Source: Flavobacteriaceae bacterium (lineage in GTDB: Bacteria; Bacteroidota; Bacteroidia; Flavobacteriales; Flavobacteriaceae). Taken from it: a stretch of 64,000 nucleotides of DNA. Of this stretch, positions 32,700 through 47,011 are shown in pieces. Below the pieces are notes generated by a model. It had not been told where the DNA came from. It worked only from the letters and a program-made list of their open reading frames with translations, and ran no database searches. The stretch covers positions 42,618 through 106,617 of the forward strand of contig JABDNT010000018.1 in the NCBI GenBank assembly GCA_013043685.1, in the 5' to 3' direction. The position numbers and the translations under genes were made by a program. Each line of letters begins with the position of its first letter. Position 1 is the first letter of the stretch.

Positions 32700-33434
32700 A
32701 TGATGAAGAATACTTTTTTTGCCCTCTTTTTGATCACCTCGTTTAACCTACTTGCCCAGGTTGGTATAGGTAATACGGCCCCCCAGGCCGCACTTGATAT
32801 CCAATCAGGCTCACAAGGTGTTCTACTACCCAGAGTCGCGTTAACTTCAGTAACTGATAATGTTACTGTAGTTAACCCGAATGGTGGTGTTCTTGCCGAA
32901 AGTACGTTGGTGTATAATACCGGCTCTGCTGGTCTGTCAACACCAGGATTTTATTACTGGAATAGCAGTCAATGGATCCAACTTGCAGACGACTCCCCAA
33001 AAGTTTATGTAGGGAAGGCTATTATTACCGGAACAGGAACTTTGGTGATAAGCGGCCTTCCATTTGAACCTTCCAGTGTTTCCATCCAGGCCTATTCGAA
33101 TGTAGACGCATATGTTTTAGATGCAGATAATGGAACCAGCAACAATGACGCTGGAATTGCAAACGCTTTTGGATCTATGAAAGGATATGCGAGAGACAAT
33201 TCAGGAAGTATAGACCAACAGGTGATTTATGGAGGAGGTTCCGGGAATTCTATTAATGATATTTCCCGATTTGCGTCTCCAAGCCACTGTGTAGGTTTGC
33301 GATATGCAGACAAAAACGGAACATCCTTAGGTGTGACAAGCGCGTCATTAACATCCTTTAATTCGGATGGATTTACTCTTAATATTGACTCATACGCTGA
33401 CAGTGTAGTAATACTCTACGAAGCGCATAAATAA
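32700..33434 (+). CDS. Secreted/surface hypothetical protein
   Basis: Signal peptide, N-terminal motif VGIGNTAPQAALDIQSGSQGVLLPR and STPGFYYWNSSQWIQL shared with the protein at 41792-44191. Confidence 0.75.
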   Translation: MMKNTFFALFLITSFNLLAQVGIGNTAPQAALDIQSGSQGVLLPRVALTSVTDNVTVVNPNGGVLAESTLVYNTGSAGLSTPGFYYWNSSQWIQLADDSPKVYVGKAIITGTGTLVISGLPFEPSSVSIQAYSNVDAYVLDADNGTSNNDAGIANAFGSMKGYARDNSGSIDQQVIYGGGSGNSINDISRFASPSHCVGLRYADKNGTSLGVTSASLTSFNSDGFTLNIDSYADSVVILYEAHK

Positions 33435-41791: not shown

Positions 41792-44191
41792 TTATCGTAT
41801 TCGTTCTACCACAAAGGTTGTTTGCTGAATTCCAGAATCAATAGTAAAAGTAGTATCCGTGTAAGCATATACCTCTACATATTGCCCAGCGGTCAAAACT
41901 TGAACGATTTCCACATCTCGGTAGATTACACCTAATGCATGATGGTTTTCAATATGTCTTTTAACAGCTGAACCATTAACGTATATTAGTAGTTCTACAT
42001 ATGCATTTGATACATTATTAGAAAGGCTTTTTACCGAAGCCGAAATCCTGTAAATTCCGTCCTCACTTACTTCAAATCTATCTGTTGTCGTGTTGAAGTT
42101 CGAACCTACAGCAATTGCAGAACTATCAAAGTTCACTTTTGTGTAAGTGAATGATGGGAGGGATTGATTTGCTGACATGGTCATTTTAGCCAAAGCGAAA
42201 TTTGAAACATTGAAATTTACGTTCGACAGATCCACTGTTTGAACTGGCTGGCCATCGTCTTCAATGGAAAGGCCTAAAGTGTCACCCAGAAGCCCAAAGT
42301 TGTCAATGGTCTGATCATCGGTATCTGCTGTCGCGTTTACGAAACTTAGTTGACCTGAGCCATCCGTTGCCACCACCTGCCCGGCAGCACCATCGGCTGC
42401 CGGCAATAGGTAGCGTCCTGTTGCCAGATTTGTTCCAAATGAAGCTCTCCCTACGAAATAACCGGCATAGTCTATCGCATTATCCGCTACTTGAGCATAA
42501 ACTCCATAATCTGTTCCCGACGTTTGAATATTGGAATAATTACCATAGGCACTTCCGGATACCGTGGGACCGATGAACGTTGTTGACGTTCCGAATAAAG
42601 TGGCAGCGCTCACACTTGAAGAGGCTGAATTTAAGGTTCCTGTAGCAGTTGCTGTAGATCCAATACTGTTGAAAAAGTTGTAATTACCAATAGCACCTGT
42701 GATCGACGTACTATTGAATTCGTTTTGTGAACCACGTGCGCTTCCACCAAATCCGGCCCCGAACGAATTATACATAGCTGTTTTAGTTCCGCCATTTCCG
42801 GAGAAAGAGTTTCGAATCGCCTGAATGGAAGTACCGGTACTATTCCCTGAAATACTATTGGAGATAGCATACACATTTGTGGTTCCATTAGCAGTTATTA
42901 GATTATCGAATCCTTTTAGCAGACCGGAAGTTCCAGCACCCATACTTTGACGAATCCCAGTGGTATTATTCGCTGGATCCGATTCCACATAGAATTTCAC
43001 ATTCGCCGGATTCGTAGTAGCACCAATTACTACATTCCCTTGTGTGAACATGTCGTCGTTAATAGCATTAGGAGCGGTGGTGGTACCAACTTCATACCAA
43101 TCGATATCCTCCTGAGCGGGATCGGAAAAGCTCAATTGCCCTGAACCATCCGTGGTGATCATTTGACCTGTGGTACCGTCTGCGGCTGGCATCAAGTAGC
43201 GTCCCGTGGAAGGATCTGTTCCAAGCGAAGTCCGGCCAATGAAATACCCTGCATAGCCCGATGGTTTCTGAACGTCTGAATAAACACCATAATGTTGCCC
43301 ACCCGCGGAGGAATTTATTATTATTTGTTCACCATATTTTGATCCCGAACCCGTTGTATTGATCACCGTTTGAACACCATATCGCTGCCCATTACCTCCG
43401 GACGAAAGGTCATTTTTTAACCCATAAAGTGCACCACTAATGGAGAATGCTCCTGGTGCTACATTTTCCAGTCCCATTGAAATGCTATTACCTGCAGAGA
43501 AATAATTCCTGAAGCCTTTGCGAACACCGTCTGCACTATTGAAGGTATTCTCGATTCCGATCTTTTGCCCGGTACCGGAATTGAGAAAGGAATTTGATAC
43601 AGCACGGATCGTTCCGTCATTACTTCCTGCTAACGAATTGCTAATTCCCGTATAATTACCGGCACCCGTAAGCACCCCTGAATTGCTCATTCCGAAATAC
43701 GTACCGCTTGGAAAGGCGCCATTTACCGAGGTTAAAATATTCGATAAATCCGTGCTCACATCACCCTGCACTAACAAGGGTGAAGTGGTGGACGTTGAGT
43801 TGCCTCCTACCGCCAGATTCCCTAAGTGGTAAATATTATCCGAGATATCATCGGCGGGATTGTTGGTTCCAACTTCATACCAGTCCGAATCGCTAGTTGC
43901 ACCGCCCACTGAAACCCAACTCATCGTTCCCTGGTCCCAGTAGTAGAAGCCTTCGGAGGGAGTTCCGTTACCGGTGACAAAAACGAGCATCCCGTCCTGA
44001 TCTACCCCCGGATCAGAGACGGGAAAGTCGTCAATTCTGGGTATTAATATTCCATCGGTGTTTGAAGGCGTGGCCACATTAGTAGCTGTAATATCTAAAC
44101 TGGATTTAGGATCGGTGTTTCCAATCCCTACTTGCGATTGAGATGTGTGGCCAACAATGCACGCCGCTACTAAAATTATTAATCGTTTCAT
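41792..44191 (-). CDS. Fibre-like surface protein with two repeat modules and C-terminal C1q/TNF-like domain
   Basis: Signal peptide; repeated DWYEVGT...YAGYFxGRxSxGT...TGRYLxPAADGxxGQ..TDGSGQLSF; C-terminal SFTYTKVNFDSSAIAVGSNFNTTTDRFEVSEDGIYRISASV...VEIVQVLTAGQYVEVYAYTDTTFTI. Confidence 0.8.
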   Translation of the reverse strand: MKRLIILVAACIVGHTSQSQVGIGNTDPKSSLDITATNVATPSNTDGILIPRIDDFPVSDPGVDQDGMLVFVTGNGTPSEGFYYWDQGTMSWVSVGGATSDSDWYEVGTNNPADDISDNIYHLGNLAVGGNSTSTTSPLLVQGDVSTDLSNILTSVNGAFPSGTYFGMSNSGVLTGAGNYTGISNSLAGSNDGTIRAVSNSFLNSGTGQKIGIENTFNSADGVRKGFRNYFSAGNSISMGLENVAPGAFSISGALYGLKNDLSSGGNGQRYGVQTVINTTGSGSKYGEQIIINSSAGGQHYGVYSDVQKPSGYAGYFIGRTSLGTDPSTGRYLMPAADGTTGQMITTDGSGQLSFSDPAQEDIDWYEVGTTTAPNAINDDMFTQGNVVIGATTNPANVKFYVESDPANNTTGIRQSMGAGTSGLLKGFDNLITANGTTNVYAISNSISGNSTGTSIQAIRNSFSGNGGTKTAMYNSFGAGFGGSARGSQNEFNSTSITGAIGNYNFFNSIGSTATATGTLNSASSSVSAATLFGTSTTFIGPTVSGSAYGNYSNIQTSGTDYGVYAQVADNAIDYAGYFVGRASFGTNLATGRYLLPAADGAAGQVVATDGSGQLSFVNATADTDDQTIDNFGLLGDTLGLSIEDDGQPVQTVDLSNVNFNVSNFALAKMTMSANQSLPSFTYTKVNFDSSAIAVGSNFNTTTDRFEVSEDGIYRISASVKSLSNNVSNAYVELLIYVNGSAVKRHIENHHALGVIYRDVEIVQVLTAGQYVEVYAYTDTTFTIDSGIQQTTFVVERIR

Positions 44192-44293
44192 AATTCAACT
44201 GTTTTGAGGACACAGCTATAGGTGGTTATGATTCGGGCAAAAAAGGTGAATTCTTCGCGTTAAATTTAAATGCTAACTATGGGGAATAGCGAG

Positions 44294-44329
44294 AATTTTT
44301 AGCGAATGCCCGATAATTTTTAGTGAATC
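44294..44329 (+). promoter_or_regulatory. Putative LytTR-type direct repeat, upstream of the surface-protein gene
   Basis: AATTTTTAGCGAATG (44294-44308) and AATTTTTAGTGAATC (44315-44329), start-to-start 21 bp. Confidence 0.6.
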
Positions 44330-44340
44330 GATTGTTGTGG

Positions 44341-45027
44341 TTAGGACCGAAGCCGTTCCTTTATGTGTTCCTTATTTGCCGAACTCAATGGGATCTCCGT
44401 ACCATTAATGAATAAAGAGTCGATCGTCATCTTAGATATCTTCTTAAGGTTAACGATATAAGACCTGTGTGACTTGGCAAAATGAGAAGGATTTAAACCT
44501 TCTGCCGTGTGTTTAAGCGTTTTCGGGACTAGGTGTTTATGGTCTTTGGTAACCACGAAGCAGTAGTTGTCGAAAGCCTTGAGATACAGGATGTCCTGCT
44601 GATTGAGCTTATAGGTTTCCCCTTCCGATTTAATAATTAAATAATCATCCCCAGCCAGGGACAGGTTGTGCCAGGCGAGTTCGATATTGCTTCTAAGGCC
44701 TGCCTCGGTAAATGGTTTTACTATAAAGCCAAGCGGTTGGGTTTGTTTTACCCTATCTACGGTTTCTGGATCTGTTTGAGAAGTGAGATATAGATAAGGA
44801 ATATTCTTCTTATCGAATTCCATGGCGAGTTCAACTCCATCCCGCTCCCCTTCCAGTTGTATATCCAACAACACCAGGTCTGGTTTTTGTTTTTGAATAG
44901 CGGATAAAGCATCGTCATAATTCTCGGCATCACCAATTACATTGAATCCCTGCTTTTGTAATGCAGTTTCTATAGTGGCTGCGATTAATGGTTCGTCTTC
45001 AACGATAAAAATACTCAATGAATGCAT
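44341..45027 (-). CDS. LytTR-family response regulator
   Basis: Receiver FIVEDEPLIAATIETAL...PDLVLLDIQLEGERDG; LytTR domain LKAFDNYCFVVTKDHKHLVPKTLKHTAEGL..FAKSHRSYIVNLKKI. Confidence 0.95.
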   Translation of the reverse strand: MHSLSIFIVEDEPLIAATIETALQKQGFNVIGDAENYDDALSAIQKQKPDLVLLDIQLEGERDGVELAMEFDKKNIPYLYLTSQTDPETVDRVKQTQPLGFIVKPFTEAGLRSNIELAWHNLSLAGDDYLIIKSEGETYKLNQQDILYLKAFDNYCFVVTKDHKHLVPKTLKHTAEGLNPSHFAKSHRSYIVNLKKISKMTIDSLFINGTEIPLSSANKEHIKERLRS

Positions 45028-45073
45028 CTAATCTTATTATTCCAATCTATTCTAAAAATAGACAAAGCAGTGT

Positions 45074-45110
45074 AATTATTTAGTGAATGCAGAAAATTAT
45101 TTAGTGAAAG
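45074..45110 (+). promoter_or_regulatory. Putative LytTR-type direct repeat, upstream of the LytTR regulator gene
   Basis: AATTATTTAGTGAATG (45074-45089) and AATTATTTAGTGAAAG (45095-45110), start-to-start 21 bp. Confidence 0.6.
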
Positions 45111-45115
45111 CAGGT

Positions 45116-47011
45116 CTATGAAAGTAAATTATACCTGCTCACGTTCAGAGTTGCGACGGTTCCTTTTACCGGGGCATTCTCGAATTGTAAGGTAGCTTTC
45201 AGTTTCTTGGCAAGTGCTTTCATTAGTTTAATTCCGAAGGAACTTTCGAGTACTTCTTCCGGCATCCCTTTACCATTATCACTTACCGTTAAAACGAGTT
45301 CATCACCATCTTTTTGAAAGTCAATATCCAACTGCCGCTCAGAATCAAGCGAGTCAAAAGCATGTTTCAACACATTGGTGATCAGTTCATTCAGGATAAG
45401 GCCAATAGGAGTGATCGATTCGATGTCCAGCATCATCGACTCTACGTTAAGCTTATAATCGACTTTATTACCATCATCCTGATGACTTTCGAAGATCTCT
45501 TTAGTAAGATCATCAAAATATTCCCGGGTATCGATTCCCACCAATTGATCTTTATTATATAATTTCTGATGAATCAGAACCATAGACTTCACCCTGTTCT
45601 GTGCCTCTTTTATGGCCCGCTGGGCTTCGGTATCCTCCATATTCTCCGATTGTAAGTAGAGAAGTGACGAAACGATCTGAAAGCTGTTCTTCACGCGATG
45701 GTGAGTTTCTTTTAAAAGGACATTCTTTTCATCTACGGTAGCTTCCAGTAGCTTTTTCTGCCGGGCTAGTTTTTGATTTTTCTTCCTGTTTTTAACGAAA
45801 AAGAAACTTATTATTCCCAGAATCACAAATACAGAACCTAAGATCCAGTATAATAATTTCTGAGATGCAGCTTGCTGTTCTAGCTTACGATCCTTGGTCT
45901 GCAGATCGTATTTTACCTCGAGCTCAGCTACATTCTTCTTGGTTTTTTCTGAAACCAGCGTATCGCGTAGCTCAGCCTCTAAATTTTTGTATAACAGAGC
46001 ATTCTTATAATCGCTACTTGTCTCATACAGACTCGATAGTTTCCCGTAAAGAGCCATTTTTTGCTGATCACGATCCGTAGTGTCAAGGCTCTTAATAATG
46101 GGAAGAAGTAAATCTATTGCGTCTTCTGTCAAATTCGATTTAAGATAAATATCCGATAAAGAAAGAGAACTATACAGTAAGGCGTTTAATGCGCCCAGAC
46201 TGTCACTAACACGAATCACATCGCGATATCTCAGAATATTAGCTTCTGTAGCTGCGGTATCAAATATATGATTCATCGGTAAATGTGTGAAGGGCGTTTC
46301 GGGTTGCCGTTTTTGGTAATATGCAGCAAGTATCTCGGTGAATTTCGCCTGCTGCGTTATTTCTCCGATACGTTTGAAATAGTCTACGAGAACATAGAGA
46401 TAAAATCCTTTTTCAGGATGGTCATCTACCGTATTCAGGTTATCCCAGGCTTTGAGATAACGTTCTGTTGCGCTGTTATAATCTTCAATCGATTCGTACA
46501 CCATACCTTTGGAATAATTGATACTGGTTATCGCATCCACGAGCTCCAGATCGACTGCCAGCGGTTCTGCCGAATTGAGATGATCCATGGCTTCATCCGG
46601 TCTATTTTGGAAGATATAGGTGTTAGCAAGGTTCACATGAAACCACATTAGATCAAGAGTCTCATTAAGATCTTCACTTAACGCTAAACCGATCGTAAAA
46701 TATTCCATTGCTTTTTCGGGAATGTCCCGGGTTACCAGATACGCACCATATTCACCGCATACAATCATTTTGGCAAAAGAAGAGACGGAATTTTCAAGGA
46801 GATATTCAAATAATGGGATAGCGTCTTCCTTGTCCAGGACTTCAATTTTATTCCGGAGCTGTTTTAATTGGACACGTACGTTCTCCTTATCCAGTTTGGA
46901 AATAGATACGCTAACACTATCGATATATTTTCGGTCGACCGATTGAGCCCGGGAGTTCAGGGCAACAAGTAAAATGCAAAGCAGCAAGATCGATCTAATC
47001 ATAAAGGGCAT
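45116..47011 (-). CDS. TPR-containing sensor histidine kinase (HisKA_2 family)
   Basis: TPR-like region, TM LLYWILGSVFVILGIISFFF, LLKETHHRVKNSFQIVSSLLYLQSE and HATPase LILNELITNVLKHAF. Confidence 0.93.
   Translation of the reverse strand: MPFMIRSILLLCILLVALNSRAQSVDRKYIDSVSVSISKLDKENVRVQLKQLRNKIEVLDKEDAIPLFEYLLENSVSSFAKMIVCGEYGAYLVTRDIPEKAMEYFTIGLALSEDLNETLDLMWFHVNLANTYIFQNRPDEAMDHLNSAEPLAVDLELVDAITSINYSKGMVYESIEDYNSATERYLKAWDNLNTVDDHPEKGFYLYVLVDYFKRIGEITQQAKFTEILAAYYQKRQPETPFTHLPMNHIFDTAATEANILRYRDVIRVSDSLGALNALLYSSLSLSDIYLKSNLTEDAIDLLLPIIKSLDTTDRDQQKMALYGKLSSLYETSSDYKNALLYKNLEAELRDTLVSEKTKKNVAELEVKYDLQTKDRKLEQQAASQKLLYWILGSVFVILGIISFFFVKNRKKNQKLARQKKLLEATVDEKNVLLKETHHRVKNSFQIVSSLLYLQSENMEDTEAQRAIKEAQNRVKSMVLIHQKLYNKDQLVGIDTREYFDDLTKEIFESHQDDGNKVDYKLNVESMMLDIESITPIGLILNELITNVLKHAFDSLDSERQLDIDFQKDGDELVLTVSDNGKGMPEEVLESSFGIKLMKALAKKLKATLQFENAPVKGTVATLNVSRYNLLS

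Follow-up and report, generated by a model that had tools for sequence, protein, structure and literature searches.

The window, a stretch of 64,000 nucleotides from a Flavobacteriaceae bacterium, contains three neighbouring genes that all lie on the minus strand: a sensor histidine kinase (45116..47011), a LytTR response regulator (44341..45027) and a secreted, QVGIG-type surface fibre protein of 799 residues (41792..44191). The kinase has HisKA_2 (E=3.8e-25) and HATPase_c (E=1.4e-11) domains and weak TPR matches, a signal peptide and one membrane segment as read by eye, and a weak match to FimS (34.6 bits, cut-off 600). The regulator joins a receiver (Response_reg, 77.3 bits) to a LytTR DNA-binding domain (66.8 bits, cut-off 22.6), and its D55 and K104 are invariant among 31 orthologues, which we read as a receiver with a phospho-acceptor Asp followed by a C-terminal LytTR domain. 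ComE is the best full-length fold match of the regulator model, and a sequence search of the PDB with the isolated LytTR domain returned a single insignificant match (E=0.12). The genome encodes six LytTR proteins, this regulator included. By sequence, the fibre protein has a weak C1q match (E=0.0067, below the Pfam cut-off); the model of its last 150 residues (41795..42244, minus strand) adopts a C1q/TNF fold (pLDDT 84) that compares with C1QL3, Caprin-2 and the collagen X NC1 domain at TM 0.72-0.75. The C1q-like tip that the initial annotation had assigned to a fibre-like protein is thus confirmed by the predicted fold. The surface proteins of two relatives (L008 and L009) pass the Pfam C1q cut-off, and those of other relatives carry YadA-head or S74 tail-fibre domains.

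The 88-bp gap between the kinase and regulator genes and the 149-bp gap upstream of the surface gene each hold a pair of direct repeats that start 21 bp apart, and the gap lengths, the four positions and the period are as the initial annotation had described them. In the regulator promoter the upstream (45100..45108) and downstream (45079..45087) half-sites, both on the minus strand, read TTCACTAAA in the gene sense (TTTAGTGAA on the plus strand); in the surface-gene promoter the upstream half-site (44319..44327, minus strand) is identical, and the downstream one (44298..44306, minus strand) reads TTCGCTAAA (TTTAGCGAA on the plus strand). Because kinase, regulator and surface gene are all encoded on the minus strand, the element in the gene sense is TTCACTAAA-N12-TTCACTAAA and not TTTAGTGAA, such that the half-site in the direction of transcription is opposite to the strand that had been compared with AgrA. 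The AgrA half-site is ACAGTTAAG-like, and the resemblance to it, having been drawn on the wrong strand, was dropped for a sense-strand comparison in which TTCACTAAA has a CACT core in common with published LytTR half-sites such as ACCACTTAT. Such a pair arose in 0 of 100 shuffles of the window, and a search of the 3.0-Mb assembly, conducted like all our genome-wide work as a pattern search, found these two pairs alone at 0-2 mismatches, that is, no random copies. At 3 mismatches the 30 matches in total were at noise level (21 for the reversed pattern), and these matches were discarded for their closeness to the control. Such a paired site is absent from the genome's five remaining LytTR loci.

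We then drew relatives from GTDB genomes (among them Aureitalea, Altibacter and Ulvibacter) and from a 398-genome sample of the family, in which 21 of 237 genera have an orthologue of the regulator. The repeats are kept along with the regulator: each of the 32 related loci that retain it (orthologue identity 42-79%) has at least one paired site, either within the regulator gap or the gap next to it, or else preceding the kinase or a secreted-protein gene. No paired site was found with two more distant homologues (L012 and L013, 41-42% identity), and at two loci (L157 and L158) the regulator's own gap has no site and the surface genes do. In one genome (G079) five sites surround two regulator copies that lie about 13 kb apart (L146, 62% identical to the query, and L147, 73% identical). 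Counting direct 9-mer repeats in the two gaps without reference to any motif gave a sharp peak at 21 bp (14 and 18 of 35 loci). A half-site matrix identified 73 sites in 691 kb, a count in which a few loci are present twice, with a spacer of 12 bp in 60, 11 bp in 12 and 13 bp in one, and 0 of 73 with a spacer of 10 or 14. Non-redundant orthologue loci (574 kb) contain 59 sites with spacer 11 or 12, compared with 2 in the reversed sequence, 0 in three Markov resamplings and 0 in 347 kb from outside the family.

Many random genomic occurrences of the motif had been named as an observation that would speak against a regulon, and the search of the assembly revealed none. Across the 398 genomes the motif tracks the regulator. 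The exact motif is present in 15 of them, 12 of which have the regulator (12/27 genomes with it versus 3/371 without, p = 2.5e-13, a value that serves as a guide only since related genomes are not independent). The three copies in regulator-free genomes lie inside a gene, in an intergenic region on the other strand and before an unrelated gene, and none of the three has a -7 box at the right distance. Along with the 32 of 32 loci, this co-occurrence supports the LytTR direct-repeat regulon that the initial annotation had suggested, in the corrected orientation.

The sites also stand at a fixed distance from the predicted core promoter. Of 59 sites, 44 have a -7 box (TAnnTTTG, one mismatch allowed) that begins 28 or 29 bp beyond the second half-site; shuffles give a mean of 1.3 and a maximum of 5, and the next-best offset in the unshuffled sequences reaches 8. 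In the window the predicted boxes are TAGATTGG for the regulator promoter (45042..45049, minus strand, predicted start ~45037) and TAAATTTA for the surface-gene promoter (44261..44268, minus strand, predicted start ~44256), each 29 bp 3' of its site. With the flavobacterial -7 box spanning -12 to -5 (PMC6847099, PMC9723704), the repeats fall at about -71 to -42, adjoining the core promoter upstream in fixed phase as is typical of the LytTR family, and just 17 of the 59 sites have a TTG -33 element. Published LytTR systems (PMC6193735) are positively autoregulated and have repeats 12 (rarely 11 or 13) bp apart that lie ~10 bp ahead of -35, a layout with which the geometry here agrees. From this position, which is the usual one for activators, we infer that the sites serve activation. 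Sites of regulator genes, selected by a name filter, have a -7 box (at most one mismatch) in 7 of 15 cases versus 37 of 44 for the other sites, which suggests that the autoregulatory promoter is less canonical.

The predicted regulon of this genome comprises the regulator gene and the surface gene. As sites precede these two genes only and not the kinase gene, the autoregulation that had been proposed for the kinase/regulator pair concerns the regulator, whose gene has a site, and does not extend in this genome to the kinase. In relatives, the genes downstream of sites code for the regulator, in some cases for the kinase, and for large secreted proteins. The latter include QVGIG proteins that end in a C1q or S74 domain, QNGINYKA proteins, and proteins whose C-termini resemble, by eye, type IX secretion signals. 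Some of these genes are unlinked to the regulator, one beside radA (L172) and one at a divergent pair (L173). Three well-kept sites (L162:9513-9541, L163:9006-9035 and L171:6545-6574) have no obvious gene downstream. The site in L162 is followed by a -7 box and then a hairpin terminator within ~100 bp, which would fit either loss of the fibre gene or production of a very short transcript; at the place of the L171 site beside radA, the related genome of L172 encodes a secreted protein of 1197 residues. At three further loci (L166, L168 and L170) small site-controlled proteins of ~72-170 residues downstream of the regulator occupy the place of the fibre gene of other genomes and resemble a free C-terminal secretion domain (SISTSKNITIKTDDN...).

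At the level of sequence, the putative sites are established in polarity, spacing and conservation, as are their occurrence together with the regulator and their constant distance from the -7 box, and we consider it very probable that the sites belong to a dedicated two-component system whose regulator binds the paired half-sites and activates its own gene and the adjacent fibre gene. The membrane sensor kinase, of the HisKA_2 type and containing TPRs, would phosphorylate the LytTR regulator, which would then bind, as a dimer and on one helix face, the two 9-bp TTCACTAAA half-sites 21 bp apart. Bound at about -71 to -42, it would aid RNA polymerase on a promoter in which a -7 box is present and the -33 element is weak or missing. 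Activation of its own gene from the promoter between kinase and regulator would provide positive feedback, and activation of the adjacent gene would lead to synthesis of the secreted C1q-tipped fibre. The same sites could be imagined to mediate repression, keeping fibre synthesis off until a signal releases it, and LytTR regulators are able to repress on repeats of this type, as described for PlnD (PMC2714321). However, the sites lie wholly upstream of the core promoter in constant phase to the -7 box and a TTG -33 element is rare, which together form the usual activator layout and make repression improbable.

With six LytTR proteins in the genome and sites deduced from sequence, another DNA-binding protein, such as one of the other five LytTR proteins, might own the sites and the adjacent regulator be a bystander. 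Yet motif presence tracks the orthologue of this regulator across genomes, the sites adjoin its gene in nearly all loci and the other five LytTR loci lack them; we rejected another LytTR owner on the basis of the co-occurrence and of the site-free loci, and regard ownership by any other protein as very unlikely. Chance, or a recent functionless duplication of an intergenic segment, could in principle account for similar A/T-rich sequence in two gaps 780 bp apart in one genome, but we give this explanation practically no weight: the window shuffles, the genome search with its reversed-pattern control and the Markov and reversed-sequence controls all speak against chance, and relatives keep only the half-sites, the spacer length and the -7 box distance, with divergent flanks and spacer sequences, which speaks against duplication of the gap.

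The leaders of the surface genes have UUUUUUUGYCC in common and often UUAACCUAC too. A search with this pair gave matches in 33 of 40 genomes, nearly all of them in one intergenic element that, on the other strand, predicts an RNA of ~72 nt in which a hairpin (loop GUAGGUUAAG) is joined by a linker, AGAUUUGGGGCAAAAAA, to an intrinsic terminator. Contig C77 of the genome under study has two copies (L198:2388-2460, plus strand, and L198 ~2733-2805), and homologues (L178-L207) are found in 1-3 copies in most Flavobacteriaceae examined; where a locus extends far enough to tell, purF and/or a superoxide dismutase gene lies nearby in most cases. Throughout the family the first ~45 nt of the RNA hardly vary, and the terminator stem covaries (23 double-change cells in 6 pairs versus 6.7 in shuffles). 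The sRNA is not in Rfam 15; a sub-threshold match to STnc40 on the opposite strand (28.6 of 45 bits) was judged to be due to chance. Rfp18 of F. psychrophilum pairs via its third stem-loop (PMC9723704) and was rejected as a counterpart because the sRNA here has two hairpins, though it may correspond to another Rfp RNA. The promoter of the copy at ~2733 contains TTTAACGAA-N12-TGGTCTAAA ending 28 bp before TATATTTG, in the geometry of the LytTR sites. Similar repeats occur in genomes without this regulator, and agreement varies among copies; the repeats are perhaps a site for another LytTR protein.

The mRNA of the fibre gene appears to be bound by this uncatalogued and strongly conserved sRNA, which would use its linker (GGGGCAAAAAA) and its loop (GUAGGUUAAG) to pair with QVGIG-type mRNAs in their leaders or first codons. 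In the surface mRNA the leader element ACCUUUUUUGCCC (44235..44247, minus strand) is complementary to the linker. When 354 gene starts were ranked by predicted duplex energy, 19 of the best 22 were QVGIG genes (30 QVGIG genes in all), versus 0-9 with 25 shuffled sRNAs and 1 with the reversed sRNA; a test on all site-linked genes other than regulators and kinases was modestly significant (p=0.0055). Among 49 gene starts of the window scored from -110 to +45, that of the fibre gene ranks first in duplex energy; when a longer stretch is scored the QVGIG gene at 32700 moves ahead of it, at -33.7. The sequence TTTTTTGCCC occurs 15 times in the whole genome: two are the sRNA genes and exactly three lie at gene starts, all of QVGIG surface proteins. 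The seed TTTTTTGYCC alone is in no genome excess (31 versus 35 in the reversed control), such that only its position at gene starts is informative. The second QVGIG surface gene (start 32700) carries TTTTTTGCCC...TAACCTAC in its signal-peptide codons (window:32715-32751, plus strand). This element, which two genomes of the same genus preserve, is likewise complementary to the sRNA, and in a third QVGIG gene (L218) TTTTTTGCCC occupies the corresponding position.

On the basis of the QVGIG enrichment in the ranking and of TTTTTTGCCC at gene starts, the pairing with surface-gene mRNAs is probably meaningful. We lean, with some reserve, towards a double control of the fibre genes in which the LytTR pair sets transcription and the sRNA base-pairs with QVGIG-type mRNAs, its own promoters possibly carrying LytTR-like repeats that serve another regulator. 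Compared with the regulator, its sites and the fibre gene, the sRNA is the less expected layer and, if double control is true, it would amount to a family-wide RNA control of the cell surface. To our knowledge few sRNA-mRNA pairs have been worked out in the phylum, and the analysis draws attention to a conserved sRNA whose predicted targets are surface proteins.

Among known systems, FimS/FimR of Porphyromonas gingivalis (PMC1974823) is likewise a Bacteroidota two-component system with a surface structure, the fimbriae, as its target, and the kinase here matches FimS weakly; this comparison is by kinase only, and the match is far below the FimS cut-off. In the literature searched we found neither a repeat site of this kind described for FimS/FimR nor a defined DNA target of any flavobacterial LytTR regulator. 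The LRS systems HdrRM and BrsRM (PMC6193735) resemble the present one in repeat spacing (12 bp, a minority 11 or 13), in positive autoregulation, here predicted, and in half-sites such as ACCACTTAT that have the CACT core in the same orientation, most agreeing with TTCACTAAA at 4-6 of 9 positions. They differ in that their LytTR regulator is partnered by a membrane inhibitor and no kinase, whereas the present regulator contains a receiver domain and is paired with a HisKA_2 histidine kinase, which sets the system apart from the LRS. The ComE/AgrA class (pneumococcal ComDE and staphylococcal Agr), which also supplied the best full-length fold match, shares the receiver and LytTR domains, two 9-bp direct repeats with a spacer of ~12 bp just upstream of the promoter, and autoregulation, again predicted here. 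It is distinguished by its peptide-sensing Agr/Com kinases, against a kinase here that, judged on its TPR, HisKA_2 and HATPase_c domains, is not of that type, and by a half-site that here is TTCACTAAA and not ACAGTTAAG-like, with a Bacteroidetes -7 promoter and a C1q-tipped fibre as target. Sequence comparison strongly supports a regulon built on LytTR direct repeats whose half-site is new. The predicted regulon is small, takes in large secreted proteins of an adhesin-like kind across about 20 genera, and comes with a testable site defined by its sequence, polarity, spacing and distance to the -7 box.
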